DNA from: Thermomicrobiales bacterium
Lineage (GTDB): Bacteria; Chloroflexota; Chloroflexia; Thermomicrobiales; UBA6265
Assembly (NCBI GenBank): GCA_020432165.1
Contig: JAGQGU010000060.1
Span: forward strand, 1-45,211
Direction: 5' to 3'
DNA: 45,211 bases
Shown piece after piece: positions 2,817 through 35,435 of this stretch. How positions within the stretch are numbered: the stretch's first letter is position 1; each line of letters opens with the position of its first letter. The position numbers and the translations under genes are program-made. The notes beneath the pieces were generated by a model. It made no database searches. It saw only the letters and a list, made by a program, of their open reading frames with translations, and had not been told where the DNA came from.

Positions 2817-3041
2817 TTCAACTCCCTTGATAAGCGCAAAATGCCAACTCGTCGAAATACATGGGCATAGACGCGCTGGTTCGATATATCAATGGTACGG
2901 GAGCCTTGTCAGCTTGCACACCCCCCGATCTGGCAAGAAGCACACATCCCCGGAATCGGCGGTCGGATGGTATTCTTCAATGAATGTGTGGGGGCCTGAA
3001 ATGGTCAATTCATGCGTACCAAAACCGGAAAGGAATACGGG

Positions 3042-9087: not shown

Positions 9088-10491
9088 TCATCCCGGAAGC
9101 CAGCCGGTGGCAGTGTTCCAGATTGAATCGATGTCCTCGCGGGTTTCTACATAGCCAGCAGCCCGGTTCATCAGCCAGGTACGTTTCAGGGCGTCATCAT
9201 GCACCCAGCCGCTGGTGTCCCCGCTCTCCACTGGCCACCAAAGATCGGTACCCACCAGTTTCGGAGCTCCGGTGACCTGCACCTTGTCCCCCTCCTGCAC
9301 CACAGCCTGTACCTCACTTGCCGTATTCGCTGAGGCACGCAGATTCCAATTTCCGTTGACCACGGTTGTGTCTGAACCGGGGAGAAAGCCGAGCGTAAAG
9401 TCGGCAATCGCGTTCCCGCCAATGGCCGGTATACCAAGAATCAATGCAATCATCAGAGCAAACATAGCGAGTGCCCGCTGGGTGTTGCGCCACTCCTTTC
9501 GTAACCAGGCACCCATACGCGATGGATTTCGCTGTGGCACTGTTTCCGTGACCTGGGGTCGAACGACAGGCTCATCAATCAGCGCGGTGGGTGCGCCGCC
9601 AGCCGTCACAACGGGTTTGGATCGGCGAGGCCAACTGAACTTCAGCAAGGGCGGATTCGCCTTCTCAGCAAAAGCTTCGGCGAAGGCAGTCGCACTCGGA
9701 TAACGCTCCGCCGGATTCGGCATTATCGCCTGCGCGACCACCGTATCAACCCACTCAGGAAGCCTCAGCTCCGGGGCAATACTTGTCGGCAACTCCGGCA
9801 CGCTATCTTGCCGCAACGCAATGGTGGCATCGTTGGATGGATCGTGTTCGCTAAAGACTTTTTTGCCGGTCAGAAGTTCGAAGACGACGCATCCCAAAGA
9901 ATAAACATCGGCGGCAGGCGTAACGTCGCGGCCGCTGCCGTGTTCCGGAGAAATATAAGTGGCCGTGCCGAGCAGCTTGTCACCTTCGCGCTGCGGTCGT
10001 CGATACGCTTCCTGCGCAATACCAAAATCGATGAGCTTCACCATGCCATCGTGGCCCAGGAAGATATTCTGCGGTGTGACATCCAGATGCACATAGCCGC
10101 GACGGTGCATCTCCTCAAGCCCTGCCGCGACCTGTGTGAGCCATCCGGCCACAGCATCTGGTTTTGCCGGCCCTTGACGTTTAAGGCGATCGCGCAAACT
10201 TTCGCCCTGCAATCGCTCCATAACGATCCAGGTACCGCGGCGACCATCGATCACGTCTACAAGATCCACGACATGCGGATTCTGCACGGCCCGGAGTACA
10301 TTCGCTTCATTGCGGAAGCGAGCCCGGCGATGGGCATCGCCCTGATATGCGGGGAGGAGCGTCTTCGCGGCGACCTCAACATCAGTTTGCGTATCGGTGC
10401 CCGCATAGATGACCGCCATACCACCCTCACCGAGCGATGGTTCGTGGTCGTGAATGGCATATCGATTGTCCAGCAAGGTGTCGACGGCCAC
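9088..10491 (-). CDS. Membrane Ser/Thr protein kinase with extracytoplasmic SH3-like domain
   Basis: An eukaryotic-type (Hanks) kinase of about 467 residues from GTG 10491. The kinase lobe (about 10-275) has the glycine loop SLGEGGMAVIYAG, ATP-binding Lys43 (EVAAKTL), the catalytic loop HLDVTPQN with Asp137 and Asn142, the metal-binding DFG (Asp155), and SPEHGSG. The usual Arg of HRD is Leu, so this is a non-RD kinase. A basic/proline linker leads to one TM helix (about 340-358). An extracytoplasmic SH3-like domain follows (NLRASANTASEVQAVVQEGD, about 378-435), probably a wall or ligand sensor. An in-frame GTG at 10521 would add 10 residues but has no ribosome site. It faces the oxidoreductase gene divergently and converges with the HAD gene at 7 nt. 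Confidence 0.88.
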   Translation of the reverse strand: MAVDTLLDNRYAIHDHEPSLGEGGMAVIYAGTDTQTDVEVAAKTLLPAYQGDAHRRARFRNEANVLRAVQNPHVVDLVDVIDGRRGTWIVMERLQGESLRDRLKRQGPAKPDAVAGWLTQVAAGLEEMHRRGYVHLDVTPQNIFLGHDGMVKLIDFGIAQEAYRRPQREGDKLLGTATYISPEHGSGRDVTPAADVYSLGCVVFELLTGKKVFSEHDPSNDATIALRQDSVPELPTSIAPELRLPEWVDTVVAQAIMPNPAERYPSATAFAEAFAEKANPPLLKFSWPRRSKPVVTAGGAPTALIDEPVVRPQVTETVPQRNPSRMGAWLRKEWRNTQRALAMFALMIALILGIPAIGGNAIADFTLGFLPGSDTTVVNGNWNLRASANTASEVQAVVQEGDKVQVTGAPKLVGTDLWWPVESGDTSGWVHDDALKRTWLMNRAAGYVETREDIDSIWNTATGWLPG

Positions 10492-10508
10492 AGGAATCCC
10501 CGTTAAGG

Positions 10509-10520
10509 TGTATACGTACA
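10509..10520. promoter_or_regulatory. TGTA-TACG-TACA inverted repeat in divergent promoter region
   Basis: TGTATACGTACA (extended to GTGTA-n4-TACAC) lies in the 61 bp between the divergent kinase and oxidoreductase genes. The identical 12-mer occurs at 1086-1097. It is a candidate shared operator; the binding protein is unknown. Confidence 0.4.
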
Positions 10521-10552
10521 CAGAGCAGTACTACCCCAACAGGATACGCGAT

Positions 10553-11691: not shown

Positions 11692-13977
11692 CTACACATC
11701 AATCCGTTTGACACGCTTGCGGGCGCGGGCGATATCGACGCGCTCGCGCTCGGCGGGAGTTAGCAGCTTTAGCGCGCCGGTGGTATCGGGTGAGGCGGCC
11801 AGGCGAATGGCGCGGTCGTCGTCCTGGGCAATGGCCCGCCGAATCCGACGTACGGCAGCACCACGGACAATGATCGCCTGTAACCGATCGATCCCATATT
11901 CACCACGGAGCGCATGGTCGTGGGCAATCCCCATCTCCCGCAACCTCGGCACAATCGCGGCAAGGGAGCGATCATCAGGTGGATTCTTGCTGGCGGCATG
12001 AATAGCGGCCTGGATAACTTCACTACGGCGCACAATCTGTTGGACCTGCGACCAAAGCTGGGGATCGTCAATCGTTGCCCCGGTCTGGTCAACAATAGCG
12101 AGCGCCGAGATGATCCGCGGATTATTGCCCGCGCGCAGCGCCAACTCAAGCTCGCGCACTGCACGACGACGATCGATCAACTCACCAATACGCCGGCGTT
12201 CGCTCGATCCCAGGCGCTGACGTCCGCCCTCTGGTTCATTCGCGACCAGTAACTCGAGTGCCTCGGCATCATGATCGCGCAATTTTGCACGCACCTCGTC
12301 TTGCCACTGCAGGCGGTTTCGCGCGAGGTCGATCCGCATACGCATCGCCGAAGGCAGGGCTTTGATGTCCTCAAAAACCTCTTCGTCAAACCAGAGCATA
12401 ATGAGCGTGTCGTCGTCGGTCTCCAGTGCGCGCAGCAACCCTGGCCACTCCAGAGCTTGCAGGACCTTCAGCAACGATTCTCTCTTCGTATCACCGAGAA
12501 GCGCCAGCTCTCCACTGACAGCCAGATCGGCGAGATCACGACGGTTGTTTGTCTCCAGTGCACGGGCAAGACGTTTGCGGATATCGTCACGCTCCTGTGC
12601 CTGACGGATAGTTCGCCGTGTCGTTTCTTCCAGCACGAGTTGCTCACGCCCAGCCGCCTGGGCGAGACTGAGAACCAAAGCATCGTCCTGTTGCTGGGCA
12701 GCGCGATTGATCTCACGATCCAGTTCACGTGCAGCACGTGCCTCATCTTCCAGGACCTGGGCGAGCTGCCGTTGATTCCGACGAGCGATGCGCTCAATTG
12801 GTCTCCTCACGACCTCCGGGACAGGAGCCGTGGAAATCACTTCATCCTCCCAGATATTCGGAACCGACGGCACGATCGGATCCGGGGTTTCTACAGGCTC
12901 CGGCCAGGTCTCTGCGAAGTTAAAACTCGGGCGCGTGGGTTCGACTGCAGACTGACCATAGAGTTCGCGCAATCGTGCAACCGCGGCGCCAATATCTAGC
13001 TCTTCCGGAGTTTCGGAGGGAGGTTCCCAGGTTGGTGCGGATTCATCCTGTCCGCGCACTGCACGCGCAATGTGAGCCAGATCGAATGCCTGATCCAGCA
13101 TCTCCTGAGCGCGAAACGCCTCTGCCTCGCAGGCTCGTTCCAGAATCTCCAGCAGATTACGCCCCAACGGGGTGGTGTGATCGCGAACAAAGGCCACCAT
13201 CTCAGAATCTCGCGACTGCCGCAAATCCCAGACGTTGAAGAGTAAGGGAGCGTCCGGCGCAGAAAGATCGTGATCGGAATTCGGCTGTAGTTGCGGTGTC
13301 TCCCGCAAGATGACGATGCTGACAAACATCACCAAAATGGCAAAAGCATCCTGATGAGCGGGGGTGCCGCTACGACCAGGATGTCGATAGGCGTGCTCCG
13401 GAGCGTCATGGACACGCTTGCGCGCGCCGGGCCATTCGAGCGTATCGAGATCAACACAAACGATATCGCCATTCGGGCGGAGCATGAGATTCGTGGGCGT
13501 CAGGTCGCCATGGGTGATGCGGCTATCGCGCAGTGCAATCGAGAGATCCTGGAGGGCGCCAGCCAGCGCATCAAGCACGGCACTATTGCGGGCAATCGCA
13601 GCCTTGTCGATCGCCTGCATAAGGGTGGGACCATCAATCCATTCTTCCAGCACTGTCGGCATCTTGCGCCCAACAATGGTGATACCACCAGTGAGTGGCT
13701 GAATTCTGGCAGGAAAGTAACTACGGGCGGAGCGAGGCAGGCCATCTTCCATGCTGCCGTAATGACGCTGCCAGAAGATTCCGGTGCTGACTTCCCTGGC
13801 GACGCGAACAGCGATCTTGCGACCGCTGGCATCCCGCACACACGCGACATTCGCAGCCATGCCGCTAACGACCTCGACCCGACCATCCCTACTCAAAACA
13901 GGTTCGTAGCCTAATGCCTCAAGCTCCGGAACCCGATTGCCTTGCAGTGCGTTTGATAATCGAGAGCGGCTCTCCAC
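11692..13977 (-). CDS. Kinase-like protein with long helical C-terminal region
   Basis: A 761-residue soluble protein. Residues about 30-310 form an atypical kinase lobe: HGDLTPTNLML (156-166, catalytic Asp158 and Asn163), then VDLDTLEWPG (175-184) in place of DFG, then HAYRHPGR and QDAFAILVMFVSI. This pattern recalls TerY-associated/YegI-type kinases, whose DFG is replaced by a D-x-D-S/T motif (pattern memory). The usual ATP-binding Lys is not evident: the AVK position reads AVRVAR, so activity is uncertain. Residues 310-395 are a Pro/Glu-rich linker. Residues 395-760 are a charged alpha-helical region with coiled-coil stretches and apparent repeats. GTG 13977 follows AAAGGG. It is divergent from the membrane pair at 14122-16899 and probably acts with it. 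Confidence 0.65.
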   Translation of the reverse strand: MESRSRLSNALQGNRVPELEALGYEPVLSRDGRVEVVSGMAANVACVRDASGRKIAVRVAREVSTGIFWQRHYGSMEDGLPRSARSYFPARIQPLTGGITIVGRKMPTVLEEWIDGPTLMQAIDKAAIARNSAVLDALAGALQDLSIALRDSRITHGDLTPTNLMLRPNGDIVCVDLDTLEWPGARKRVHDAPEHAYRHPGRSGTPAHQDAFAILVMFVSIVILRETPQLQPNSDHDLSAPDAPLLFNVWDLRQSRDSEMVAFVRDHTTPLGRNLLEILERACEAEAFRAQEMLDQAFDLAHIARAVRGQDESAPTWEPPSETPEELDIGAAVARLRELYGQSAVEPTRPSFNFAETWPEPVETPDPIVPSVPNIWEDEVISTAPVPEVVRRPIERIARRNQRQLAQVLEDEARAARELDREINRAAQQQDDALVLSLAQAAGREQLVLEETTRRTIRQAQERDDIRKRLARALETNNRRDLADLAVSGELALLGDTKRESLLKVLQALEWPGLLRALETDDDTLIMLWFDEEVFEDIKALPSAMRMRIDLARNRLQWQDEVRAKLRDHDAEALELLVANEPEGGRQRLGSSERRRIGELIDRRRAVRELELALRAGNNPRIISALAIVDQTGATIDDPQLWSQVQQIVRRSEVIQAAIHAASKNPPDDRSLAAIVPRLREMGIAHDHALRGEYGIDRLQAIIVRGAAVRRIRRAIAQDDDRAIRLAASPDTTGALKLLTPAERERVDIARARKRVKRIDV

Positions 13978-14033
13978 GGTGCCCTTTCCCTAAGGTCTGC
14001 GTACGTATTACCTCGTCTGGCTGGACGATGATG

Positions 14034-14088
14034 GTACAGTGTATGTACAGTCCCTGCATATCTGCAACGTCCCGCCCGCAGGGGACTG
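14034..14088. promoter_or_regulatory. Nested inverted repeats in divergent kinase-like/membrane-pair region
   Basis: GTACA-GTGTA-TGTAC (14034-14048) is directly followed by a hairpin. CAGTCCCTGC (14048-14057) pairs with GCAGGGGACTG (14078-14088), with one bulge and a 20-nt loop. A further 6-bp hairpin, AAAGGT-TGCG-ACCTTT (14103-14118), ends just before ATG 14122. These elements fill the 144-bp divergent region and probably control both directions. Confidence 0.45.
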
Positions 14089-14121
14089 ATCGTCAGAACC
14101 GAAAGGTTGCGACCTTTGTCC

Positions 14122-15783
14122 ATGCGAACTTCCGCTAATCATAGAACGACCGACGAGTCGACTCGTTCCCCTCTGCCCGAATCAACCTGGTTGAATCGGC
14201 AGCCTTCCTCGGCGGTATTCAATACGCCAGCCCCGGAAGTAGCCCGTCAGATCGATGATATCGCGCAGCTTCTCCAGGATGTCGATACGCGCAGCGCCGA
14301 TCGTCTTGACGAGCTTGCCAATGCTGTCAGCAACGCAAATGGTCGTCAACGCTGGAGTGATGTTGATCTCCGCCGCGCCTTCAACACCGATCGTCTTGCC
14401 CACGCCTATGCGGTGAAGCACGAAGGTGGCTATGCACCCAAGGCAGTCGAAATCGCTGACAAGCTTCGCAACGTGTTGGTGCTGGTACCGATTCTCCTGA
14501 CATGGTGGGCGCTGGGCGCTGCCGTGAGCAACTGGGCTGCATTCGAGGAGGCGAACCCGGATAGCGGTATGTCCTTCCTGGTCGCCTGGGAGCAGGGTTT
14601 CGGCGGACTCTCGCGTTGGTGGGAGCCAAGCCTTTCACACGTCGCCTTCGTCGATGCAGTACTCATTCTGGCAATCATCATCCTGACGTTCTATGCCCAT
14701 GGGCGTGCAGAAGCCCAGGAAGACAAAATCGCAGATACCGCCAGCCTCTTCCAGGCCGAAATGGATAACGCGCTGGCCGAAGCAAGCGTGCTGTTGGCCA
14801 CGGATCGCAGTTCCCGACCGGTGCGCCTGGCCGACGCCGTGGAGCGCATGGCTGATTCCTTCGAGGAAAGTTCCGCGGCAATGCTCAATCAGTTGCAGGT
14901 GGAACACGATCGCATGGAACTCATGGCAACCCGCCGCGAACGCGAGGTCAACGACTTCGGCACCTTCGCCACCGGTATGCGTGCCGGCGCCGAAGAGATG
15001 CAGCGCGTGCTTGGCAGCCTGCGCGATGTAGCCAAGGGGCTGGAAGCCAGCATCAACGATATGACCGGCGATACCGCCAAATCCGCCGAGCAGCAACGGG
15101 CATTGCTACTGGCTGTGAATAATCTGGAGCGGCTCACCTCCTCTGCCATTCAGAACGATCAGTCGGCGACACGACAGCTTTCGGCGACCGCTGCCCGTCT
15201 GGGCGAAACGGCAGAAAAGACAATCTCGGGCGCCGAGAGCGCAAGTGCCGCTGGTCGATTGGCGATGGAAGCAGTGGCGAACATCGCCGAGATCGCCAAA
15301 GAGATCACCGCGAGTCAGAACCGTATCGATAGCGTGCTGACGGCGCAGAATACCGCCAGCGCTCGCCTCAGCGAGACACTGGGGAGTACTGAAGGACAGA
15401 GCTCGCAGACTGCACGGCAGCTTGGTGAGATCGGCAATGGCCTGGCGGCCATCCAGCGCGATTTCGCCACCGTAGGGCAGCAGAATGCACAGCAGATTAA
15501 GGCGCTTGCCAAGGTTGTGGAAGGTCAGACAACCAGCAGTCAGGATCTCACCAATTTGGCCCGGGAAATCAGTGGTGTTGCCATGAGTACAGCTCAGAGG
15601 CAACGCGAGGTAAACGACCAGCTCCAGCACCTGGTGCAGCGACTCGATAGCGTCGCCAATAGCCTAAATCACCTGATTGCCCAGCAACCCGGCAGTATCC
15701 ACGGCGAACGCGTCGACATCGTGGATGCGGATACCCCTTCCACCACACCAGCTACCGCGCGTTGGAGCCGCAGTCGCACGTGA
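14122..15783 (+). CDS. Two-TM membrane protein with long coiled-coil tail (ZorA/MotA-like architecture)
   Basis: A protein of about 553 residues with no enzymatic motif. Residues 1-112 are soluble, with a conserved-looking segment AYAVKHEGGYAPKAVEIADK just before the membrane. TM1 is about 117-138 (VLVLVPILLTWWALGAAV), a loop of some 33 residues follows, and TM2 is about 171-192. From 195 to 530 there is a continuous Ala/Gln/Glu/Ser-rich coiled coil, probably cytoplasmic by the positive-inside rule. It resembles methyl-accepting receptors in composition but has no HAMP or signalling hairpin. The layout (TM block, long cytosolic tail, MotB-like partner downstream) matches ZorA-type stator proteins, although those have more TM helices. 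ATG 14122 is chosen; an in-frame TTG at 14107 has no better ribosome site. Its partner starts 48 nt downstream. Confidence 0.6.
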   Translation: MRTSANHRTTDESTRSPLPESTWLNRQPSSAVFNTPAPEVARQIDDIAQLLQDVDTRSADRLDELANAVSNANGRQRWSDVDLRRAFNTDRLAHAYAVKHEGGYAPKAVEIADKLRNVLVLVPILLTWWALGAAVSNWAAFEEANPDSGMSFLVAWEQGFGGLSRWWEPSLSHVAFVDAVLILAIIILTFYAHGRAEAQEDKIADTASLFQAEMDNALAEASVLLATDRSSRPVRLADAVERMADSFEESSAAMLNQLQVEHDRMELMATRREREVNDFGTFATGMRAGAEEMQRVLGSLRDVAKGLEASINDMTGDTAKSAEQQRALLLAVNNLERLTSSAIQNDQSATRQLSATAARLGETAEKTISGAESASAAGRLAMEAVANIAEIAKEITASQNRIDSVLTAQNTASARLSETLGSTEGQSSQTARQLGEIGNGLAAIQRDFATVGQQNAQQIKALAKVVEGQTTSSQDLTNLAREISGVAMSTAQRQREVNDQLQHLVQRLDSVANSLNHLIAQQPGSIHGERVDIVDADTPSTTPATARWSRSRT

Positions 15784-15831
15784 TCGTCATGGCACTCCAC
15801 AATCCTTGCCTGATCCACTTTGGAGAGCACC

Positions 15832-16899
15832 ATGCAGCCCTATAAGCGCAAACGACGAACCCGTCGCGATATGATCACTCTCGGCGGCTGGCTCTTCGCT
15901 GACCTGCTGCTGGGACTCTCGCTGCTCTTTCTGGTAGCGAACACGGTCAGCAATGATCCCCCTGCACCCACTCCTACGCCGATGCCGGACTACTTCGCGA
16001 CTGCCGAAAGTGAGATAGCCAGTAACCAGCTTGAGAACCAGCAAACCGTTGTTGCGCTGGAGAGTGATCTGGCCGACAAGGAGAACCAACTCGATAACGC
16101 GCAGGCGACAACCGATGCCGAGGCGACACGCCAGGCACGCGATGCCGACGAGTCCGTAGCAGCCCAGGCAACTATCGCGGCTCTGAGCACAGAACAGGCG
16201 GCAAATGCTGCCAGTCAGGATGAACTCAACTCCGCATACGCGACCACCGTGGCGGAAGCGACGAATGTTGCCAGCCAATTGCAGGCATCCGGCACCGAGC
16301 AGGCAGAGTTGCGCGCTGCCGCCACGGAGAATGCCGCACATGGAAACGATGCGGAGGGCACGATCGCCGTGCTCAATACCACCGCCGCCAACGCCCAGGC
16401 TACAACCGATGCAGCCGTCGCCACCAGCGATGCCGCCAACAATGAGATTCTGGCAGCGCAGCAGCAGGCACAACTGAATACGCTGGATCCAAATGCGATA
16501 CCAGAGACACTTCAGGTCGATCTGAACGGTGTGATCGCGGGCGACGAGGATGCACTCGCGGATGCGCGCGACGAGCTGCACAGAGTACTCGATCCCTATG
16601 CCGATTCCGAAACGTGCCGTATTGGTTTCGTGCTGATTTCAAGCCGGGCACCCGAGCTTGGACAAGGTATTCAGCTGTCAGATGCGATTGCGGCAATGAT
16701 TCCGGACGAATTCCCCGATCTGTTGCCAACATCCTCTGATGGCGGTTCACCGACCCTCGCCAGCGAATCGATTGCCCTCCCCGGCACGACCCCAACCGGC
16801 GAGGTGCAGCTGCTGCTCTTCATGAGTGCTGGCTGTGAGCCAACTGGCCAGACGAATGACCTCGCCCCGATAGCTATCTACATCCGCGAGGCACGGTGA
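15832..16899 (+). CDS. MotB/ZorB-like single-TM protein with Ala-rich rod
   Basis: A 355-residue protein with a strongly basic N-terminus (PYKRKRRTRR) and one TM helix (about 17-38) containing an acidic residue, Asp24, in FADLLLGLSLLFLV. An Asp at this place is the ion-carrying residue of MotB, ExbD, TolR and ZorB. After the TM comes a Pro/Thr linker (PPAPTPTPMP), then a long Ala/Thr/Asn/Gln-rich coiled coil (about 55-215). A C-terminal globular domain (about 220-355, two Cys, IGFVLISSRAPELGQGIQLSDA) follows, which may correspond to a diverged OmpA-like domain. The rod should lie outside the membrane. ATG 15832 follows GGAGAGCACC. Its 3' end overlaps the convergent glycosyltransferase gene by 22 bp. 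Confidence 0.6.
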   Translation: MQPYKRKRRTRRDMITLGGWLFADLLLGLSLLFLVANTVSNDPPAPTPTPMPDYFATAESEIASNQLENQQTVVALESDLADKENQLDNAQATTDAEATRQARDADESVAAQATIAALSTEQAANAASQDELNSAYATTVAEATNVASQLQASGTEQAELRAAATENAAHGNDAEGTIAVLNTTAANAQATTDAAVATSDAANNEILAAQQQAQLNTLDPNAIPETLQVDLNGVIAGDEDALADARDELHRVLDPYADSETCRIGFVLISSRAPELGQGIQLSDAIAAMIPDEFPDLLPTSSDGGSPTLASESIALPGTTPTGEVQLLLFMSAGCEPTGQTNDLAPIAIYIREAR

Positions 16900-18141: not shown

Positions 18142-18465
18142 ATGTCCAATACCGTTGCCGTCACCGACGCCACCTTCGAGAACGAAGTTATCAATAGCGA
18201 CAAGCCCGTGCTGGTGGATTTCTGGGCACCATGGTGTGGCCCCTGCCGCATGGTAGGACCGGTGCTGGAAGAGATCGCGGACGAGAATAGCGATGTCAAG
18301 ATCGTAAAAGTTAATGTGGATGAGAACCAGCAGTATGCTGGCAAGCTGGGTGTATTCAATATCCCGACAATGATCATCTACAAGGGTGGCCAGCCGGTTG
18401 ACAAGCTGGTGGGTGCCATGCCGAAGCAGCAGATTCTGGATCGCATCACGCCACACGTCGGCTAA
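18142..18465 (+). CDS. trxA: Thioredoxin
   Basis: A 107-residue classical thioredoxin that reduces protein disulfides in the cytoplasm. The active site is [11 protein letters not shown] (Cys33 and Cys36), with the cis-Pro loop [11 protein letters not shown] near 73-83. Length and order match the one-domain family. ATG 18142 has GGGAGG 6 nt upstream. It is a single-gene unit with its own promoter and a strong terminator. Confidence 0.96.
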
Positions 18466-18480
18466 CCTCATAGAATCCAG

Positions 18481-18522
18481 CCACCGTCTCGGGGACCCCC
18501 GAGGCGGTGGTTTTGTTTTTTT
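18481..18522 (+). terminator. Intrinsic terminator of the thioredoxin gene
   Basis: CCACCGTCTCGGG pairs with CCCGAGGCGGTGG around a GACC loop (13 bp with one T-G pair). It is followed by TTTTGTTTTTTT. Confidence 0.92.
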
Positions 18523-18621
18523 GCTCGGTATCACATCCCGTCTACCACATAGACACATTGATTTGAGTCTCTATGAATCCTATTATGTAGATAGTCATCT
18601 TCAGTTCTCCGGGACTGAAGG

Positions 18622-18646
18622 AAGGGGGCCAGTGATGGCCCCCTTC
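18622..18646 (+). promoter_or_regulatory. Strong hairpin covering an upstream candidate start of the NYN gene
   Basis: GAAGGGGGCCA and TGGCCCCCTTC form a perfect 11-bp stem with loop GTGA. It contains both a G-rich ribosome-like site and an in-frame ATG (18635). It has terminator-like symmetry but only a short T run. It either blocks that start or attenuates transcription ahead of the NYN gene. Confidence 0.55.
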
Positions 18647-18670
18647 GTGTATCCAGAGAAAGTTGACCGG

Positions 18671-26614: not shown

Positions 26615-27865
26615 TTAGCGTTCGCGCAGGAAGCGGATGATAGAGCTTTCGCTCTCCCAGTCCTCGCCCGGGTAATCGGGCTGACCCGTTCCCTGATAGC
26701 TCTGTCCGCTCGGCGGCGTGCTCGGGCGGTAACTCGGCTGGCTGCTCTGGCTCGGTTGAGTCGTCGGCTGGTAGTTGCCGAAACCGTAGTTGTTATAGGT
26801 ATCCGGGCGATCCTCAAAACCGGTCGCGATGAGCGTGATCAACATGCTATCGCCCAGGCTTTCATCGATCGAGGTGCCGTAGATAATCTCCGCCTCCGGA
26901 TCCGCAGCCGCGCGAATGACCTCCGCGGCTTCACTGGTCTCGAAGAGGGTAAGACCGCTGCTCGCCGAGATGTTGTAGAGCACACCCTTGGCGCCGCGAA
27001 TATCCATCTCGAGCAACGGACTCTCGATGGCCTCACGCGCAGCATTGACGGCGCGATCCGCACCTTCACCGACACCGATCGCCATCAGGGCCGAACCAGC
27101 ATCCTGCATGATCGTCTTCACATCGGCGAAGTCCAGATTGATGATGCCCGGCTTGGTGATGAGATCGGAGATACCGGCGATACCCTGTCGGAGCACGTCA
27201 TCGGCAATCTCGAAGGCTTCGCTGACGGTTGTTTTCGGCTCGACCATCTCCAGCAAACGCTGATTCGGGATGGTGATGAGCGCATCGACCACGTCCTTAA
27301 GCGCGGCCACACCCTCTTCCGCCGCCCGGCGGCGACGTCCACCCTCGAACTCGAAGGGCTTGGTCACCACAGCGACCGTGAGGGCACCGCTCTGCTTGGC
27401 GAGGTGCGCCACCACCGGGCTGGCCCCGGTACCGGTGCCGCCACCCATACCAGCGGTAATGAAGACCATATCGCAATCGCGCATGGATTCAGCGAGATCG
27501 TCAGTGCTCTCTTCGGCGGCACGTTCGCCGACTTCCGGGCGACCGCCAGCGCCAAGGCCCTTGGTGAGCTTGTCACCAATGCGGATCACCTGGCTGGCTT
27601 CGCTGGTCATCAGCGCCTGCGCGTCGGTATTGACGGCAACAAACTCAATGCCCTCAACGCCACTGGCAACCATGCGATTAATTGCGTTGCCGCCAGCGCC
27701 ACCAACACCCACAACCTTGATGCGTGCGAAGGTATTGGCAAAGAGCTCGCCGGAGGACCAGCGACTTTCGCGCTTCGGTGCTTCCTGCTGAACCTGCTGC
27801 TGTGCTGCCTGTGCGATCGGTGCCTGCTGCGGCCGTCGAGCCGGATTCTGACCTCGGGACTGCAT
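26615..27865 (-). CDS. ftsZ: Cell division protein FtsZ
   Basis: FtsZ is the tubulin-like GTPase that forms the division ring. From ATG 27865 (GGTGAGG upstream) it has 416 residues. A Gln/Ala-rich N-terminal tail (about 1-30) leads into IKVVGVGGAGGNAINRM. The GTP-binding signature GMGGGTGTGASP lies near 131-142, and the T7 synergy loop GIINLDFADVKTIM near 225-238. A disordered Ser/Gln/Tyr/Pro linker (about 345-395) ends in the conserved C-terminal peptide SIIRFLRER, the docking site for FtsA, SepF or similar. No ftsA or ftsQ accompanies it, so SepF may anchor it, as in many monoderms. It has its own promoter downstream of ddl. Confidence 0.97.
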   Translation of the reverse strand: MQSRGQNPARRPQQAPIAQAAQQQVQQEAPKRESRWSSGELFANTFARIKVVGVGGAGGNAINRMVASGVEGIEFVAVNTDAQALMTSEASQVIRIGDKLTKGLGAGGRPEVGERAAEESTDDLAESMRDCDMVFITAGMGGGTGTGASPVVAHLAKQSGALTVAVVTKPFEFEGGRRRRAAEEGVAALKDVVDALITIPNQRLLEMVEPKTTVSEAFEIADDVLRQGIAGISDLITKPGIINLDFADVKTIMQDAGSALMAIGVGEGADRAVNAAREAIESPLLEMDIRGAKGVLYNISASSGLTLFETSEAAEVIRAAADPEAEIIYGTSIDESLGDSMLITLIATGFEDRPDTYNNYGFGNYQPTTQPSQSSQPSYRPSTPPSGQSYQGTGQPDYPGEDWESESSIIRFLRER

Positions 27866-27994
27866 AATCCCCTCACCACCCATACTGCTGTGCGATGTGG
27901 CGATGCCGCCCGGCACCGCATGTGTTAGCCAAGTGTGTTTGCGCAAGGCAAACGCCAGAGATACCGGTAAGATACGGGTATCCACAGTGTCGGA

Positions 27995-28003
27995 AGTATA
28001 GCA
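27995..28003 (-). promoter_or_regulatory. Extended -10 promoter for ftsZ
   Basis: On the minus strand TGCTATACT (28003-27995) is an extended -10 box (TGnTATACT) with no strong -35, right after the ddl stop. It would give ftsZ a leader of about 120 nt. The leader contains small inverted repeats: GTTTGC-CTTGC-GCAAAC, and GATACC paired with GGTATC. Confidence 0.5.
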
Positions 28004-28018
28004 TATGAACGTACAGTA

Positions 28019-29131
28019 CTAGCGCTTGTGCGCGTGTCGTTCCAGGGCCAACTCAACCAGCCGATTCACGAGTTCAGGGAGGGCAATACCGGCCTGTTGC
28101 CAGAGCATGGGATACATGCTGATACTGGTGAAGCCGGGGAGCGTATTGACTTCGTTCAAATAGATCTGATTCGTGCCATCTTCCAGGAAGAAGTCGACGC
28201 GGGCGAGTCCGGCCAGATCGAGCGCGATGAAGGATTCGATAGCAATCCGCTCCATCTCCTTCTGAATCTCGGGATCGACATCGGCGGGGATGATGAGATC
28301 GGCGGAATCGTCCAGATACTTACTGGCGTAATCGTAGAACTCGGCGCGCGGTTTGATCTCGCCGAGTCCGGAGGTGATCGGGGCATCGTTACCGAGCACA
28401 CCCATCTCCAGCTCGCGTCCAGTCACGCCCTGCTCCACCACCACACGACGATCGAAATGCGCGGCTTCCTGCAGGGCAGTGCGCAGATCATCGCTATTCT
28501 TCGCCTTGCTCACACCCACGCTGGAACCCATATTGGCGGGCTTCACGAAGACGGGATAGGGTAATGCACGCTCAATGCGGGCAATGACCTCATCGGGATT
28601 CAGTTGCCATTCTCGTCGCGTGATCAGCACCCACGGCAGTTGCGGTACGCCAGCCTGCTCCAGAATGACCTTGGTCATGGCCTTGTCCATACCAACCGCA
28701 GACCCGAGCACTCCACTACCAACGTAGGGGACGCCTGCCATCTCCAACATACCCTGAATGGTGCCATCTTCACCCATAGGCCCATGGAGAGCCGGGAAGA
28801 AGATATCGATGCCATTGGCGGCCTGCTGAGGCAACAATGCCTCCGCACCGATCACCGGGCGGATATCGCGACTGCTATCCGGAACAGCCGTCTGCTCGCC
28901 TTCGGTGAGATGGAACATCGGACTTTCCGCCACCAGCGCCGCGTGTGGACTCTCACCTGCCAACCATTGGCCGGAACGGGTGATACCGATCTCGACAACC
29001 TCATAGCGGTCGGAATCGAGCGCATCCATGATCGTGCGAGCGGAGCGGAGAGAGACATCGTGCTCGTCGCTTCGTCCACCGAAAACGACCGCTACCCGAA
29101 TCTTGCGCGGTTGGGAGTTGGAATCTGTCAT
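28019..29131 (-). CDS. ddl: D-alanine--D-alanine ligase
   Basis: Ddl joins two D-Ala with ATP, making the dipeptide that MurF adds to the wall precursor. The 370-residue protein has the N-terminal VAVVFGGRSDEHDVSL, the ALHGPMGEDGTIQG block near 111-124, and the ATP-grasp segments VFVKPANMGSSVGVSKA near 195-211. The metal-binding and omega-loop end is EVNTLPGFTSISMYPML near 332-348. The C-terminal motif reads Ser-x-Ser-Met-Tyr. In general knowledge Tyr versus Phe at the specificity position in the N-terminal part decides D-Ala or D-lactate; I did not resolve it. ATG 29131 is chosen. It lies 65 nt after murC in the same operon. Confidence 0.95.
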   Translation of the reverse strand: MTDSNSQPRKIRVAVVFGGRSDEHDVSLRSARTIMDALDSDRYEVVEIGITRSGQWLAGESPHAALVAESPMFHLTEGEQTAVPDSSRDIRPVIGAEALLPQQAANGIDIFFPALHGPMGEDGTIQGMLEMAGVPYVGSGVLGSAVGMDKAMTKVILEQAGVPQLPWVLITRREWQLNPDEVIARIERALPYPVFVKPANMGSSVGVSKAKNSDDLRTALQEAAHFDRRVVVEQGVTGRELEMGVLGNDAPITSGLGEIKPRAEFYDYASKYLDDSADLIIPADVDPEIQKEMERIAIESFIALDLAGLARVDFFLEDGTNQIYLNEVNTLPGFTSISMYPMLWQQAGIALPELVNRLVELALERHAHKR

Positions 29132-29196
29132 TGAATCATCCAGTCAATCGGATTATCACGGGTTCAGCCCGGCTGCCCGGGTTAGGGGCAAAAAGA

Positions 29197-30594
29197 TTAC
29201 GGAGTTGAATGTACCAGCAATGGGCCAACCTGTGTCACGGTGCCAGCACCGATGGTGAAGATGACGGCTTGAGCATCATCCACCAGCAGATCGCGTACGG
29301 CCGCCGCAGCTTCATCTGGTGTCGTCGCAAGCGTTACATTGCGTGTCATCCGGGCTGCGAGATCGGCACTGGAGATATTGTGAGGATTGGCTTCACCAAC
29401 ACCGTAGATCTCCATCAGCACCACATCATCGGCCAAATCGAGCGACGCCGCGAATTCGTCCATCAGCGTGAGGGTGCGGCTATAGGTATGAGGCTGATGG
29501 ACAACAATCAAACGCTTGCCCGCAAAATGCTCGCGAGCGGCGTGCAGCACCGCTGTGATCTCTTCGGGATGATGGGCGTAATCATCGACAATCGGTGCGC
29601 CCCGGTATTCACCCTTGTACTCAAAACGGCGGCCGATACCGGTGAAGGACTCCACACCACGAATCGCCTCTTCTACCGAGATGCCAGCAGCGTGCAATGC
29701 GGCAATAGCAGCTACGGCATTGCGGGCGTTGTGCTTGCCTGGCATCTTCGGATGGAGCGGATGGGCATCTCCGGATGGAGCGATCACCACACGGTTGCTG
29801 GCATCGCCCTTCAAGCGCCACTGCGCCGATGCGTCCTCCCCGAAGGTGCGGATGGTAATCCCTTCCCTCCCCTGCACCTGCGCCATCACACGTTGGCAGC
29901 CGGGATCGTCGCTGGCGATCACCAGGGTACCGCCATCGCGGATATTGCCCACAAAGTCCACGAAAGAGCGATCGTAGTCGGCCTGGTCGGTATAGATATC
30001 GGGGTGATCGAAGGCAACTGAGGTGATGATGGCAACGTTTGGGTAAAGCCCGTGGAAGGAGCGATCGAACTCGTCCGCCTCTACCACAAAGTGCTCGCCA
30101 GTACCTGGCTCGGCATTGGTGCCGGTGGCAGCCACGATCGCCCCGACTGCGAATGTCGGATCGGCACCGAGCGTGCGTAGCGCCACGCTCAGCATGCCGC
30201 TGGTCGTCGATTTGCCGTGCGATCCCGCCACCGCAATACCGATGCGTTCCCCCGCCGCCATCCCGAGCAGATCGCCCCGTTTGATAACGCGCGCGCCATT
30301 GGCCACCGCGGCATCGATCTCAACGGCAGCATTCGCGGCGGCCCGCTTGTTGGTGACGATAATATCGGCCTGTGAGGCCAGAGTCGGATCGTCATGGCCA
30401 ATCACCACGGGGATATCCATTGCGCGCAGGGCCTGGGTCTGCGCCGATTCCACCGCATCCGAGCCAGAGACGGTGTATCCCCAAATCTTGAGAATACGAG
30501 CCAAGCCACTCATACCGATTCCGCCGATACCAATGAAATGGAATGTTGCTGGCAGTGGCGGCAAGGGCTCGGGTGAGCGGCGATTAGTTGTCAC
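29197..30594 (-). CDS. murC: UDP-N-acetylmuramate--L-alanine ligase MurC
   Basis: MurC adds L-Ala to UDP-MurNAc, the first amino acid of the stem peptide. The 465-residue protein has the N-terminal UDP-binding GIGGIGMSGLARIL (22-35), the ATP P-loop GSHGKSTT (124-131), FVVEADEFDRSF near 168, and the C-terminal DDYAHHPEEI near 335, all in family order. The P-loop differs from the usual GTHGKTTT by Ser for Thr at two places, a conservative change. GTG 30594 follows AGGAG and overlaps the end of murD by 11 nt, so they are translationally coupled. murG and ftsW, which usually lie between murD and murC, are absent. Confidence 0.95.
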   Translation of the reverse strand: MTTNRRSPEPLPPLPATFHFIGIGGIGMSGLARILKIWGYTVSGSDAVESAQTQALRAMDIPVVIGHDDPTLASQADIIVTNKRAAANAAVEIDAAVANGARVIKRGDLLGMAAGERIGIAVAGSHGKSTTSGMLSVALRTLGADPTFAVGAIVAATGTNAEPGTGEHFVVEADEFDRSFHGLYPNVAIITSVAFDHPDIYTDQADYDRSFVDFVGNIRDGGTLVIASDDPGCQRVMAQVQGREGITIRTFGEDASAQWRLKGDASNRVVIAPSGDAHPLHPKMPGKHNARNAVAAIAALHAAGISVEEAIRGVESFTGIGRRFEYKGEYRGAPIVDDYAHHPEEITAVLHAAREHFAGKRLIVVHQPHTYSRTLTLMDEFAASLDLADDVVLMEIYGVGEANPHNISSADLAARMTRNVTLATTPDEAAAAVRDLLVDDAQAVIFTIGAGTVTQVGPLLVHSTP

Positions 30595-31990
30595 CTTGCG
30601 ACTCCTGGATATGTTTCACGGCATCCTTGAACTGGTTACCACGATCAAACTCGTTGCGGAACATACCAAAGCTGGCACAACCGGGCACCAATGCGATAGC
30701 GTCCCCGGCTTCGGCGCGCGATGCCGCGGCATCCACAACCTCCGCCATGGAGTGATAGGGACCTTCGTAGAAGACACCACGATCATCCAGCAGCTGCATC
30801 AAAATCGTGGTGGCGGTGCCATCCAGTAAATAGACCGAGACCTTGTGACTGGCAATCGCATCCGCAAAGGGGGTGAGATCGGTCTCCTTGTCGGCACCGC
30901 CAGCGATGATATGCACCACCTGGGCCTTTTGACTGAGCACATCAATCGCGTGCACGGCCGCAGCCGGGGCTGTGGCCGAAGTGTCGTTCACGTACATCAC
31001 ACCAGCGATGGTCACGATCTCTTCCATGCGGTTCTCCACTCCTTTGAATCCTGCGATTCCGGTGGCCACCGCAGACGCAGGTGCACCATAGGCGAGGCTG
31101 GCAAGTCCGGCCGCGAGTGCATTACGCAGACCCTGCTCGCCACTGAGCGAGAGCTGGGTCGGCAGTGGTAGATCCAGCGTTACGCCATTGAGGCGAAAAT
31201 GCAATGCCTCATCGGCCCAGGCACCATCGCCGCCGGGTTCAGTCATCTGAAACGGAAGCAAGTGCGCGCCGGTTTCGTGCACCACTTTGGCTGTATCAGG
31301 ATCGTCGGCGTTGTAGACGAGGTAGTCACCGGCACCGAGATGATGGGCAATCGAGCGCTTGGTGGCGGCGTAATCCTCGAAACCGTCATAGGCATCGAGA
31401 TGATCGGGAGAGATATTCGTGATCACCGCCACATGCGGACCGAGCTTGTGTTCAGCCAACGCTTCCAGCTGCCAACTGGAGAGCTCAATCACGACTAGCT
31501 GATCTGGTTGGATGTCATCGACGACACCAAGTGCGCTCACACCCATATTGCCGGCGAGAATCGCATTCGGTCTCCAGGCGCGCATGATATCGCCGGTCAG
31601 GGTGGAAACGGTCGTCTTCCCCTTTGTACCCGTGATACCCAGAATCGGAGCGGCGCAACGCGGGAAGAAGAGACTCATCTCCATATCAATGCGCACACCA
31701 CTCTCGCGGGCAAGCTTCAGGTATGGGCTCCAGCGTCGCACACCGGGATTACGGATAACGATATCCGCATTCTCACTCGTAAAATCGGCATCAATATGAC
31801 CACCAAGATGGTAGGTAATCGGCAATCCCGCGAGTTGATCGATCGAACTCTGTAGCTGATCGGCCGGTCGCATATCGGTGACGGTGACGATGCCGCCGTG
31901 ACTGGCGAGATACTTCGCGACACCAACTCCACCGCCTAGGATGCCGAGCCCAAGCACGGTAAAGCGGACGCCAGCGAGATCGTTGCTCAT
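30584..31990 (-). CDS. murD: UDP-N-acetylmuramoylalanine--D-glutamate ligase MurD
   Basis: MurD adds D-Glu to UDP-MurNAc-L-Ala. Recognisable blocks are the Rossmann-like VLGLGILGGGVGVAKYL at the N-terminus, the ATP loop GITGTKGKTTVSTLTG near 117-132, the ELSSWQLEAL segment near 168, TNISPDHLDAYDG near 190, NDTSATAPAAA near 332, and the C-terminal LVPGCASFGMF. ATG 31990 follows AGGTGGG; an in-frame GTG at 31999 is possible. From 31990 it has 468 residues, normal for the family. It begins 9 nt after mraY. Confidence 0.95.
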   Translation of the reverse strand: MSNDLAGVRFTVLGLGILGGGVGVAKYLASHGGIVTVTDMRPADQLQSSIDQLAGLPITYHLGGHIDADFTSENADIVIRNPGVRRWSPYLKLARESGVRIDMEMSLFFPRCAAPILGITGTKGKTTVSTLTGDIMRAWRPNAILAGNMGVSALGVVDDIQPDQLVVIELSSWQLEALAEHKLGPHVAVITNISPDHLDAYDGFEDYAATKRSIAHHLGAGDYLVYNADDPDTAKVVHETGAHLLPFQMTEPGGDGAWADEALHFRLNGVTLDLPLPTQLSLSGEQGLRNALAAGLASLAYGAPASAVATGIAGFKGVENRMEEIVTIAGVMYVNDTSATAPAAAVHAIDVLSQKAQVVHIIAGGADKETDLTPFADAIASHKVSVYLLDGTATTILMQLLDDRGVFYEGPYHSMAEVVDAAASRAEAGDAIALVPGCASFGMFRNEFDRGNQFKDAVKHIQESQGDN

Positions 31991-31999
31991 GCCACCCAC

Positions 32000-33055
32000 C
32001 TACATCAGCGCCAGGGCGACGCCCAGGAGCCCGGACATCATTCCGGCAAGCCAGAAGCGCAATGCCACCTGGGTATCACTCCATCCCAAAAGCTGGAAGT
32101 GATGATGAATAGGCGTGCGCAGGAAAATACGTCTGCCCTCGCCATATTTCTTCTTGGTGTATTTGAAGTAGCTGGTCTGCAGGATAACCGAGATGTTCTC
32201 CGCCACAAAGACAGCACCTACCACCAGCAAGAGCAGCCACTGGCCGGTCATAAAGGCCGCCACTGCCAGCGCCGACCCCAACGAAAGCGCCCCGGCATCA
32301 CCCATGATCACCTGCGCCGGGTAGGCATTGAACCAGAGGAAGCCCATGAGCGCGCCGACCATGGTGAAGCAGAAGGTGACCACACCCAGCTGGCCTTGGA
32401 GGTAGGCGATGATGCCATAGGAGACGAAGGCAATGGCGCTCAGACCAGCGGAGAGCGTATCGATACCATCCGAGAGATTGACGGCATTGCTCATGGCCAC
32501 GATCGCGAAGACTGCAATGGGGATATAGAACCAGCCGATATTGTAGCGACCCACCAGCGGGATATAGATATGGGTGAGCCCCATTCCCCACGGATCCGGC
32601 AGATGCAGCACGAAAGCCGCGATTACCGCGACGGTGGTCTGTACGATGAGCTTGTAACGACCGGCAAGCCCATCCTCCTGTCCGGCCTTGTTCACCGAAC
32701 CGACCAACGTCGTCAGATCATCGATCACACCGAGGATACAGGTGGAGACAAGCACAAAAATGGGCAGCAGCATACTCAGACGCCCATAGAGATTGAAGAG
32801 GCATGTCAACAGCACGACGGTGAAGACGAACATGACGCCGCCGATCGTCGGTGTACCCATGCCAGAGAGCGATGTATCCCGCATCTCCATCCGGATGCGC
32901 TTACCAACCTTATGCTCGCGCAACCAGGTGACATAGGGACGACCGATGATGACCGTCAGCACAAATGCCAGACCAGCGAGTGCCAGCGAGACCGCCATGT
33001 TCTCGCCCGCTCCCACGGGCATAATGGAGGTTTTGGCGAGGACGAGCGGTGTCAC
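32000..33055 (-). CDS. mraY: Phospho-N-acetylmuramoyl-pentapeptide transferase MraY
   Basis: MraY transfers phospho-MurNAc-pentapeptide from UDP to undecaprenyl phosphate, forming lipid I in the membrane. The 351-residue protein has about ten TM helices and the family motifs GTPTIGGVMF near 68, LGVIDDLT near 109 (catalytic Asp pair), NAVNLSDGIDTLSAG near 190, and TPIHHHFQLLGWSD near 318. The third motif is usually NLTDGLDGLA, so this form is slightly divergent but keeps the Asn and both Asp. GTG 33055 follows GGAGGAGC and overlaps the murF stop by 4 nt. Confidence 0.95.
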   Translation of the reverse strand: MTPLVLAKTSIMPVGAGENMAVSLALAGLAFVLTVIIGRPYVTWLREHKVGKRIRMEMRDTSLSGMGTPTIGGVMFVFTVVLLTCLFNLYGRLSMLLPIFVLVSTCILGVIDDLTTLVGSVNKAGQEDGLAGRYKLIVQTTVAVIAAFVLHLPDPWGMGLTHIYIPLVGRYNIGWFYIPIAVFAIVAMSNAVNLSDGIDTLSAGLSAIAFVSYGIIAYLQGQLGVVTFCFTMVGALMGFLWFNAYPAQVIMGDAGALSLGSALAVAAFMTGQWLLLLVVGAVFVAENISVILQTSYFKYTKKKYGEGRRIFLRTPIHHHFQLLGWSDTQVALRFWLAGMMSGLLGVALALM

Positions 33056-34476
33056 GATGCTCCTCCTCCGGTGATTGATGTCCGCAGAGCGGCAACAATG
33101 CGCTCCATCTCCAACCCACGCGCGCCCTTGATCAGCACCATATCGCCATCAGCGAGATCATCCAGCAGTAGCTGAATCAGTTCCTCCCGTTGAGAAGGAT
33201 CAAAGCGATAGACAGTAAGTTGGCGACCGCTCCGCTTGGCGGTCTCGACCGCGGTGGCGATGGTGATATCAGTGAGTTCACCAAAAGTAACGAGCACATC
33301 CACGACCTCACCGGCGCGACCACCGATGATACGATGTCCTTCTTCAGCATGTGCACCGAGCTCGCGCATCTCGCCCAAAACGGCGATTCTGCGTTTGCCC
33401 GGCAGTTCCTTCAGGAGATTCAATGCGGCCAGCACTGAAGGGGTACTGGCGTTGTAGGTGTCATCGATAATCTGGGAATTGTTGGGGCCTTCAACCAACA
33501 GCAAGCGCACCTGCGTGTTGTGATCCTGCAAGCCAGCCATCATCTCGGCGAGATCCATCCCGAAACCGTGGCCGACGGCCAGTGCGACAATCGCGATCAG
33601 CACGCCCGGACCACCCACGAATGGCACGGTTAGATAGCGATCCTCACCCTCGATATTTACCCAGAAGCTGAGTCCCTTGATGCCCTGACTCTGGACATCG
33701 TGGGCATAGACATCGGCCTGACCTTCGACACCATAGGTGATCACGCGGGCCCGACTACTCGCAGCCATGGCACGCACACGCGGATCGTCGTGATTCAGCA
33801 CCACGAATCCGTCTGCAGGGATCGCCTCGACCAGTTCTGTCTTCGTCTTCGCGATATTCTCCAGCGAACCCATCCGCTCCAGATGAACGGGATAGATATT
33901 GGTCACAACACCAACGGATGGCCGGGCGATTTCGGCGAGCATGGTGATTTCGCCAAAGGCGTAAGCACCGCCCATCTCCAGCACGATGATCTCGGCATCT
34001 TCCGGGCAGTCGAGAATGCTTAGCGGTAAGCCCACCTCGTTGTTGAAGTTACCCGGGCTACGAAAAACCTTGAAGCGTTGGCTCAATACAGCGGCGATCG
34101 ACTCCTTGGCGCTGGTTTTGCCCACGCTGCCAGTGATACCAACGACACGAGCCTTGAGCCGGGCACGTTGCCAGGTGGCCCAGCGTTGCAACGCCGCGCC
34201 CGGCTCATCGACCAAAATCAGAGGAATCTCGATTTCCGGATGCTGCTCGGCCCAATCTCGCGCCACAATCGCGGCCACAGCACCATTCTCGATAGCCGCA
34301 GGGACGAACTGGTGAGCATCGTGATGCTCACCACGTAGGGCAATAAAGAGGCCACTCTTGCGCGGCATGCGACGCGAATCGCGCTCCAGCTCCAGCTCAA
34401 TCTCCTGATCAGGCACAGGTCGGCTGAGTACGCCGCCGGTCGCCTCCAGAATCTGGTTCAGGGTGTAGCGTTTCAT
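33052..34476 (-). CDS. murF: UDP-MurNAc-tripeptide--D-alanyl-D-alanine ligase MurF
   Basis: MurF joins D-Ala-D-Ala to the UDP-MurNAc tripeptide, completing the precursor. The 474-residue protein shows the N-terminal substrate domain (DSRRMPRKSGLFIAL near 31), the ATP loop GITGSVGKTSAKESI near 114-128, EMGGAYAFGEITML near 172, the DDTYNASTPSVLAAL segment near 343, and the C-terminal VLIKGARGLEMERIV. ATG 34476 has AAGGAG 4 nt upstream. murE, the enzyme before it in the pathway, is not in the window. The gene starts 23 nt after rsmH. Confidence 0.95.
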   Translation of the reverse strand: MKRYTLNQILEATGGVLSRPVPDQEIELELERDSRRMPRKSGLFIALRGEHHDAHQFVPAAIENGAVAAIVARDWAEQHPEIEIPLILVDEPGAALQRWATWQRARLKARVVGITGSVGKTSAKESIAAVLSQRFKVFRSPGNFNNEVGLPLSILDCPEDAEIIVLEMGGAYAFGEITMLAEIARPSVGVVTNIYPVHLERMGSLENIAKTKTELVEAIPADGFVVLNHDDPRVRAMAASSRARVITYGVEGQADVYAHDVQSQGIKGLSFWVNIEGEDRYLTVPFVGGPGVLIAIVALAVGHGFGMDLAEMMAGLQDHNTQVRLLLVEGPNNSQIIDDTYNASTPSVLAALNLLKELPGKRRIAVLGEMRELGAHAEEGHRIIGGRAGEVVDVLVTFGELTDITIATAVETAKRSGRQLTVYRFDPSQREELIQLLLDDLADGDMVLIKGARGLEMERIVAALRTSITGGGAS

Positions 34477-34499
34477 CCCGCTCCTTATGGTCAGTGTTC

Positions 34500-35435
34500 T
34501 CAGTTCAGGCGTGCAGCCACACGCATGATTGCCGACCGGCTACGACTATTGGCAGCCTGCTCCTGCGCGGTCGGCCGCACCGGCTTGCCGATGCGTTTCA
34601 GTCTGGCTGAATGATGACACACACACACCGGCACGTCAGGCGGGCAGATGCAATCGGTGCTTTCCAACGCCATAAATTGCTTGACGATACGGTCTTCCAG
34701 CGAGTGAAAACTGATGACTGCCAACCTGCCGCGCGGGGCGAGCAGATCAACTGCTGCTGTTAGTACCGATTCCAGCGCAGTGAGTTCATCATTCACGGCG
34801 ATGCGCAACGCCTGGAAGGTCTTGGTCGCGGGATGAATCGCCTTACCGCGGCGCCCCCCAACGGCATTCTCTACAACGCTAGCCAAATCGGCTGTGGAGG
34901 TAAATGGCTGCCGCTTGCGTCGCTCCACGATCGCCCGCGCGATCTGGCGCGAGCGGGATTCCTCGCCATAGCGCCAGATGATATCAGCGATCTCTTCCTG
35001 GGTGTAGGTGTTGACGATATCGGCGGCCGAGGGACCATGGGTCGGATCGAAACGCATATCCAGCGGACCATCGAAGCGAAATGCAAAGCCACGGTCCGCC
35101 TGATCAAGCTGAAACGACGAGAGACCGAGGTCGAGCAGGATGCCGTTGACCGGCGGAATTCGCTGTTCTGAACCGATAGCAGCGAGGTTCCGGAAGTTAT
35201 CGTGAACGGGAATCAACCCCCGACCGATATCCATCGCCCGAAGCTCATCGGCCCGAACCATCGCATCGGGATCAGCATCAATCGCATAAACCGTGGCATC
35301 GCCATGCAATCGGGTCAGTAACTCCGTCGTATGACCGCCACCGCCAAAGGTGCCATCGATATAGACTCCCCCTGTATGTGGCTCCAGCGCATCGACCGCT
35401 TCCTGCAACAAGACAGAGATATGACCCGTACTCAT
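34500..35435 (-). CDS. rsmH: 16S rRNA (cytosine-1402 N4) methyltransferase RsmH
   Basis: RsmH (MraW) methylates the N4 of C1402 in 16S rRNA with S-adenosylmethionine, and classically opens the dcw cluster. The 311-residue protein starts HISVLLQEAVDAL, followed by the SAM loop DGTFGGGGHT (27-36), ILLDLGLSSFQLD near 99, and PATKTFQALRIAVNDEL near 202. The ending is FHSLEDRIVKQF near 244. The ATG overlaps the stop of the carboxylase gene by one base (TGATG). No mraZ precedes it, an unusual feature. Confidence 0.95.
   Translation of the reverse strand: MSTGHISVLLQEAVDALEPHTGGVYIDGTFGGGGHTTELLTRLHGDATVYAIDADPDAMVRADELRAMDIGRGLIPVHDNFRNLAAIGSEQRIPPVNGILLDLGLSSFQLDQADRGFAFRFDGPLDMRFDPTHGPSAADIVNTYTQEEIADIIWRYGEESRSRQIARAIVERRKRQPFTSTADLASVVENAVGGRRGKAIHPATKTFQALRIAVNDELTALESVLTAAVDLLAPRGRLAVISFHSLEDRIVKQFMALESTDCICPPDVPVCVCHHSARLKRIGKPVRPTAQEQAANSRSRSAIMRVAARLN

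Follow-up and report, generated by a model that had tools for sequence, protein, structure and literature searches.

How two membrane proteins with the build of a motor stator came to sit beside a divergent kinase-like gene, and whether the three serve phage defence or the cell envelope, is the question raised by positions 11692 to 16899 of a 45,211-nucleotide stretch of Thermomicrobiales DNA (contig JAGQGU010000060.1 of assembly GCA_020432165.1; hereafter the window), a single contig from a draft genome of 3.2 Mb. Here a gene that we call K, on the minus strand, diverges from two plus-strand genes, A and B, with about 130 bp between K and A. A first-pass annotation had proposed an ion-driven, ZorA/ZorB-like complex coupled to the kinase-like protein, in defence or envelope signalling. 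We find a locus fixed in one bacterial family, with an invariant intramembrane Asp in B and a conservation pattern reminiscent of an axle in a ring. The chances are, in our view, evenly balanced that A-B is an undescribed stator-like module, either ion-coupled or mechanosensory, which feeds cytoplasmic signalling and whose job likely lies at the envelope and not in phage defence.

K, A and B form a conserved core locus

K (11692..13977, minus strand) encodes a 761-aa pseudokinase-like protein with an alpha-helical repeat tail, recognised from its open reading frame (ORF), its family homologues and a PADLOC match to STK_OB. A (14107..15783, plus strand) encodes a 558-aa membrane protein in which hydropathy, an AlphaFold model and homologues indicate two transmembrane (TM) helices and a long cytoplasmic coiled coil. 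B (15832..16899, plus strand) encodes 355 aa from an ATG at 15832, or 359 aa from a TTG at 15820, the ATG being the better conserved of the two. Start codons were set by eye, and that of A is uncertain. The ORFs lie at these coordinates and are conserved, and K, A and B are therefore genuine genes.

Of 61 genomes searched in the order, 26 have a B match, 25 an A match and 28 a K match. Within the order, A and B matched only in the family to which the window belongs; K gave two weak matches beyond that family, both limited to a part of the kinase domain. All three genes occur in each of the ten near-complete family genomes (completeness of 90% or more, contamination of 5% or less), and A or B in none of the comparable genomes of other families (0/18). 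Wherever a locus is long enough for the arrangement to be judged, K diverges from A-B, so that this neighbourhood survey bears out the three-gene linkage proposed at first pass. The A tree groups mostly by genus, and K-A-B is a vertically inherited, single-copy core locus of the family. A genome-wide scan with B returned only one close relative, a Thermomicrobiales metagenome-assembled genome apparently of the same genus.

Farther afield, a profile of the A TM region found five further genomes in the class and 30 of 400 in the phylum (a few of them already counted). B directly adjoins A in nearly all of the distant Chloroflexota loci retrieved; in L112 the two lie 7 kb apart. Beyond Chloroflexota, the searches with A covered plasmids, phages and viral contigs only.

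The membrane subunits are conserved like an axle and its ring

B runs from a basic N-terminus through a single TM helix and an Ala/Thr-rich rod to a small C-terminal domain. By hydropathy the helix (15880..15936, plus strand) spans residues 21-39 of the 359-aa ORF, with seven Lys or Arg residues before it and none after, and because of this positive-inside topology the C-terminal domain is predicted to be extracytoplasmic. The helix carries the motif GGWLFADLLLGL, whose G, W, A and D are invariant. Its Asp (15901..15903, plus strand; residue 24 from the ATG and 28 from the TTG, hereafter Asp24) is present in 43/43 B homologues, which were scanned without selecting on it; the first-pass annotation had named loss of this residue as a point that would tell against it. 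An acidic TM residue is expected of ion-driven 5:2 motors, and the invariant Asp of B is such a residue. Distant Chloroflexota B proteins carry the motif W-[LI]-[FWY]-A-D.

The C-terminal domain of B (residues 222-339; 16483..16836, plus strand) is delimited by alignment and modelled with a high predicted local distance difference test score (pLDDT), in the order beta-alpha-beta-alpha-beta-beta; a Cys pair within it is invariant in the home family. The same domain also ends apparently secreted Ala/Thr-rich proteins that lack the Asp-bearing TM helix (L038:6930-9461, L039:3254-5551, L035:7472-8266 and L041:8947-10515), some of which, by reading only, may contain cupin-like regions. Reading also suggests that B of L087, L088 and L090 has an additional immunoglobulin-like insert, placed after the TM helix and before the C-terminal domain.

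The hydropathy of A peaks twice, at residues 123-141 (TM1; 14473..14529, plus strand) and 179-197 (TM2; 14641..14697, plus strand), and in its AlphaFold model a helical N-terminal region is accompanied by two long helices and by a coiled coil that reaches about residue 525. The coiled coil (about residues 200-525; 14704..15681, plus strand), predicted to be cytoplasmic, is indicated by the helix content of the model and by coiled-coil-type hidden Markov model matches. The stator-like anatomy first described for the pair, with two TM helices and a coiled coil in A and one Asp-bearing TM helix, a rod and a domain in B, thus stands. TM1 carries the motif P128-x3-T132-W133 (14488..14505, plus strand), which is kept in 30/30 aligned A loci that have B, and its Trp is lost in all six A loci that lack B. 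Position 194 of TM2, Thr in the window, is Thr or Ser in most members. Thr132 and Thr/Ser194 lie on the conserved face of the A helices, where 5:2 motors carry Ser or Thr in their large subunit.

We compared conservation around each helix in the 30 B-containing loci, with p values taken against shuffled positions. TM1 of A is conserved on one face (p = 0.002), as is TM2 (p = 0.001), and the B helix is conserved all round with no preferred face (p = 0.79). Among the controls, Chloroflexota MotB has no preferred face (p = 0.48) and MotA TM4 has one (p = 0.02); in a further control, the anchor helix of an ordinary kinase, conservation is simply low. At the level of sequence, this is the pattern to be expected of a helix enclosed by a ring of its partner, a pattern compatible with more than one stoichiometry.

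The loci without B (L092, L097, L102, L107, L110 and L115) are Ktedonobacter-type paralogue loci that hold K and A, and in 5/6 of the genomes having them an intact A-B pair stands at a second locus. The B-less loci lie mostly behind a vWA gene and an uncharacterised gene for a protein of about 700-830 aa. In L114 A and B appeared to be fused, but we set this reading aside as unreliable. We also asked whether A is a two-TM pore domain of the SLATT type, and no SLATT family was among the matches listed.

K resembles a pseudokinase, and the pair changes partners

The kinase-like domain of K (about residues 36-300; 13078..13872, minus strand) has HGDL...VDLD motifs, and the best PADLOC match of the protein is the kinase family STK_OB (E = 1.3e-15, residues 49-265). 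The domain named at first pass is thus real, and its description can be refined in two respects. First, in the K alignment Arg58 (13804..13806, minus strand) occupies the position of the catalytic Lys (VAIK), and Arg replaces this Lys, which an active kinase should carry, in 22/22 alignable K proteins; most of the neighbouring PknB-like kinases retain it. Second, the long helical tail is a helical-repeat region (about residues 420-755; 11713..12720, minus strand) that is also found without a kinase. HGD and DxD are present in the window protein and most others, with HGD lost in L048, L055, L057 and L065. Judged by these motifs, K is likely a pseudokinase or an altered kinase. In L078, L079 and L082 the gene just upstream of A encodes a K-type tail with no kinase domain. 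L079 also has a separate Pkinase gene, and PP2C-family genes occur in L079 and L082; here the parts are the same, split across genes.

More distant Chloroflexota place A-B in other company. In Ktedonobacter-type genomes the pair follows GAP1-N2 and DO-GTPase2 genes, in several cases with HSP70-vWA genes as well. Such GAP1/double-GTPase loci with A-B are L087-L091, L094 and L095, and L093 has GAP1 only. These systems, which host A-B pairs in Ktedonobacter-like genomes, are absent from the window locus: neither GAP1 nor DO-GTPase genes are among the flanking genes examined at K-A-B. Kaur et al. 2020 inferred a membrane-proximal role for GAP1/DO-GTPase systems and predicted them to be conflict systems (PMC7159879). 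The main text of that paper mentions neither MotB nor ExbB, and its GAP1-N2 section describes no A-B pair (PMC7159879).

Elsewhere, vWA, PP2C and STK kinase genes neighbour the pair. The early suggestion of a tie to kinase signalling holds. In genomes with a small A (L096, L098-L101, L103 and L116) no such signalling partner was seen, which identifies A-B as the constant unit. Two proteins from these neighbourhoods may be recorded. An HSP70-vWA fusion protein (L087:1350-3404) is encoded near A-B in a GAP1/DO-GTPase locus, with members of the same gene family in L088-L091. A 1305-aa NERD-kinase-STAND-like protein (L106:11859-15773) adjoins A-B, with PP2C and beta-helix proteins upstream.

Likeness to known motors and the case for a receptor

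GldL, which forms the ring of the GldLM motor, contains two TM helices and lies mostly on the cytoplasmic side (PMC8986121). The presence of only two TM helices in A, which the first-pass annotation had listed as its own weak point, is therefore no objection to a stator reading. The GldLM motor has a 5:2 stoichiometry and no clear homology to MotAB (PMC9389320). GldLM and PorLM, of Bacteroidota gliding and type IX secretion, further resemble A-B in their one-TM small subunit with a big outer part and in their adjacent genes, besides the two-TM, mostly cytoplasmic large subunit and the lack of clear homology to MotAB (PMC8986121, PMC9389320). They differ in phylum and partners, in the key acidic residue, which is Glu49 in TM2 of GldL and here the Asp of the small subunit, and in the outer part, which in B consists of a rod and a single small domain.

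The conserved Asp of ZorAB packs against a ring of Ser/Thr residues of ZorA, an arrangement that constitutes a stator signature (PMC11890865), and the essential residues of ExbBD are Asp25, Thr148 and Thr181 (PMC12905483); the counterparts in A-B would be Asp24, Thr132 and Thr194. ZorA and ZorB share with A-B a long cytoplasmic tail, a small-subunit Asp at about residue 24 and a small outer domain. Unlike them, A-B has two TM helices in its large subunit, no significant sequence match to Zorya, no ZorC, ZorD or ZorE, a pseudokinase-like partner and vertical inheritance. ExbB/ExbD, TolQ/TolR and MotA/MotB likewise have the small-subunit TM Asp and the basic cytoplasmic N-terminus, and Thr148 and Thr181 of ExbB, like the Thr residues of A, fall in two TM helices of the large subunit (PMC12905483). 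However, A is without the other TM helices and the cytoplasmic domain of ExbB, TolQ and MotA, and an OmpA-like wall-binding domain is not demonstrated in B.

We searched for homology with Pfam, NCBIfam, PHROGs, PADLOC, PDB sequences, Foldseek and hhalign with decoys. MotA_ExbB (PF01618) gave no match to A and is not among the families listed for the aligned A homologues, and the genome scan found no protein of MotA_ExbB or MotB_plug (PF13677). B has no Pfam match, including to MotB_plug or OmpA, and Foldseek of its C-terminal domain gave peptidoglycan-binding matches only at E of about 0.03-0.05. ExbB recurs among the weak fold matches of A; the model is dominated by coiled coil, which limits the power of this search. 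PADLOC matched A to ZorA weakly (E = 0.017), over the coiled coil only and below the coiled-coil families LmuB and JetC, and matched no ZorB at the locus; the kinship with Zorya that had been proposed is not upheld. The best PDB sequence match to the B TM profile is 8QYD ('membrane protein'; E = 0.64), with Asp aligned on Asp, which is suggestive only. We take 8QYD to be ZorB.

Several of these observations count against a motor-like complex. A has no significant sequence or fold match to MotA, ExbB or ZorA, nor does the B domain match OmpA significantly in sequence or fold. Aligned by hhalign with Chloroflexota MotB, the B helix scored no better than TM-permuted decoys (13/200 equally good). 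The six B-less loci probably represent one or two evolutionary losses, not six, and the Asp and Thr might serve only to join A to B, with no ion flow. Because no homology is significant in sequence or fold, membership of A-B in the MotA/ExbB, MotB, Zorya or GldLM families is not established.

A purely structural role of the Asp and Thr is the core of an alternative that we consider possible, if somewhat unlikely. A-B would be a non-motor TM receptor, whose outer B domain senses the wall or a ligand, whose Asp, Thr and Trp only hold the two subunits together and whose A coiled coil relays to K and the partner kinases with no ion flow. Such a receptor would suit the partner operons, which are signalling modules (STK/PP2C/vWA and GAP1/DO-GTPase), the chemoreceptor cytoplasmic helices among the Foldseek matches of A, and the lack of significant homology to motor families. 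It fits less well with a B helix conserved on all faces and A helices conserved on one, as in MotB and MotA, and the P-x3-T-W motif together with a mid-TM Asp is closer to a stator ion site than to a simple assembly motif. That A-B works like a 5:2 motor or a mechanosensor is, we estimate, close to an even call.

Genomic context points to the envelope

The genes that recur around K-A-B in the family encode a PknB-like kinase, an oxidoreductase-like ORF and a glycosyltransferase. In the window the first of these is a canonical PknB-like Ser/Thr kinase with an SH3_3 domain (9088..10521, minus strand; Pfam Pkinase 7.6e-47, SH3_3 3.4e-08). This kinase family is found near K-A-B in many family loci and is a possible partner.

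K-A-B lies about 10 kb from an ftsZ/mur cell-wall cluster (26615..35435, minus strand), which by Pfam comprises FtsZ, D-Ala-D-Ala ligase, three Mur ligases, a MraY-like transferase and MraW, and which we note as genomic context only. In L050, L055 and L057 the distance to ftsZ is 2-5 kb, so that proximity within 2-10 kb holds in 4/5 testable genera; it is missing in one long-contig genome (G055). Such nearness, in the window's genus and in those of L050, L055 and L057, would suit a structural cell-division or wall-tethering complex with a Tol-Pal-like role, for which K is only a scaffold and signalling is incidental. The exception of G055, and the position of A-B beside signalling genes in other Chloroflexota, make this very improbable.

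A Zorya-related anti-phage system, with K as sensor or effector, is improbable too, though slightly less so. The ZorA-like long tail and ZorB-like TM helix invite this reading, as does the kinase family STK_OB as best PADLOC match of K, and the GAP1/DO-GTPase partners in other Chloroflexota come from predicted conflict systems (PMC7159879). Yet the locus is single-copy and fixed in the near-complete family genomes, is syntenic near ftsZ/mur, and has an A tree that follows genus for the most part; A found no match in phages, plasmids or viral contigs. As the first-pass annotation had noted, the Zorya effectors are missing: no ZorC, ZorD or ZorE is among the flanking genes. The defence role that it had entertained is thus not supported. 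An envelope role is likelier than defence because of the ftsZ/mur proximity and because B shares its outer domain with apparently secreted proteins.

Elsewhere in the window, an NYN-domain protein, a putative nuclease (18386-19552), is encoded between thioredoxin and a sigma-factor-like gene, and four large ORFs have no Pfam match (24299-26029, 20291-22144, 22920-24140 and 2889-3854).

A working model and its implications

In the stator-like reading that we favour, several A subunits, probably five, would ring a B dimer, and the mid-membrane Asp of B would pack on the Thr/Pro face of the two A helices to form an ion-coupled switch or motor. The rod and small outer domain of B would act as sensor or anchor at the cell wall or surface. 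Driven by ion flow or mechanical load, the coiled-coil tail of A would move and so pass its state to cytoplasmic signalling proteins. In the window's family the receivers would be K and probably also the neighbouring PknB-like kinase; elsewhere they would be the kinase/PP2C/vWA or GAP1/double-GTPase modules. The likely job would be surveillance or remodelling of the envelope or cell wall.

More broadly, and with confidence somewhat short of even, we suggest that A-B represents a new, Chloroflexota-wide class of ion-driven motor or mechanosensor built on a two-helix ring, which would serve as an interchangeable input (or output) for pseudokinase-repeat, kinase/phosphatase/vWA and GAP1/double-GTPase sets. 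The predictions for Asp24 and Thr132 make the module directly testable. If the proposal is correct, A-B would be a motor-like membrane module that falls outside the MotAB/ExbBD/TolQR/GldLM/ZorAB set, comes from a phylum with unusual envelopes and has a direct tie to kinase and GTPase signalling. For some GAP1/double-GTPase systems, for which a role at the cell membrane has been predicted but not explained, it would also provide the membrane half.

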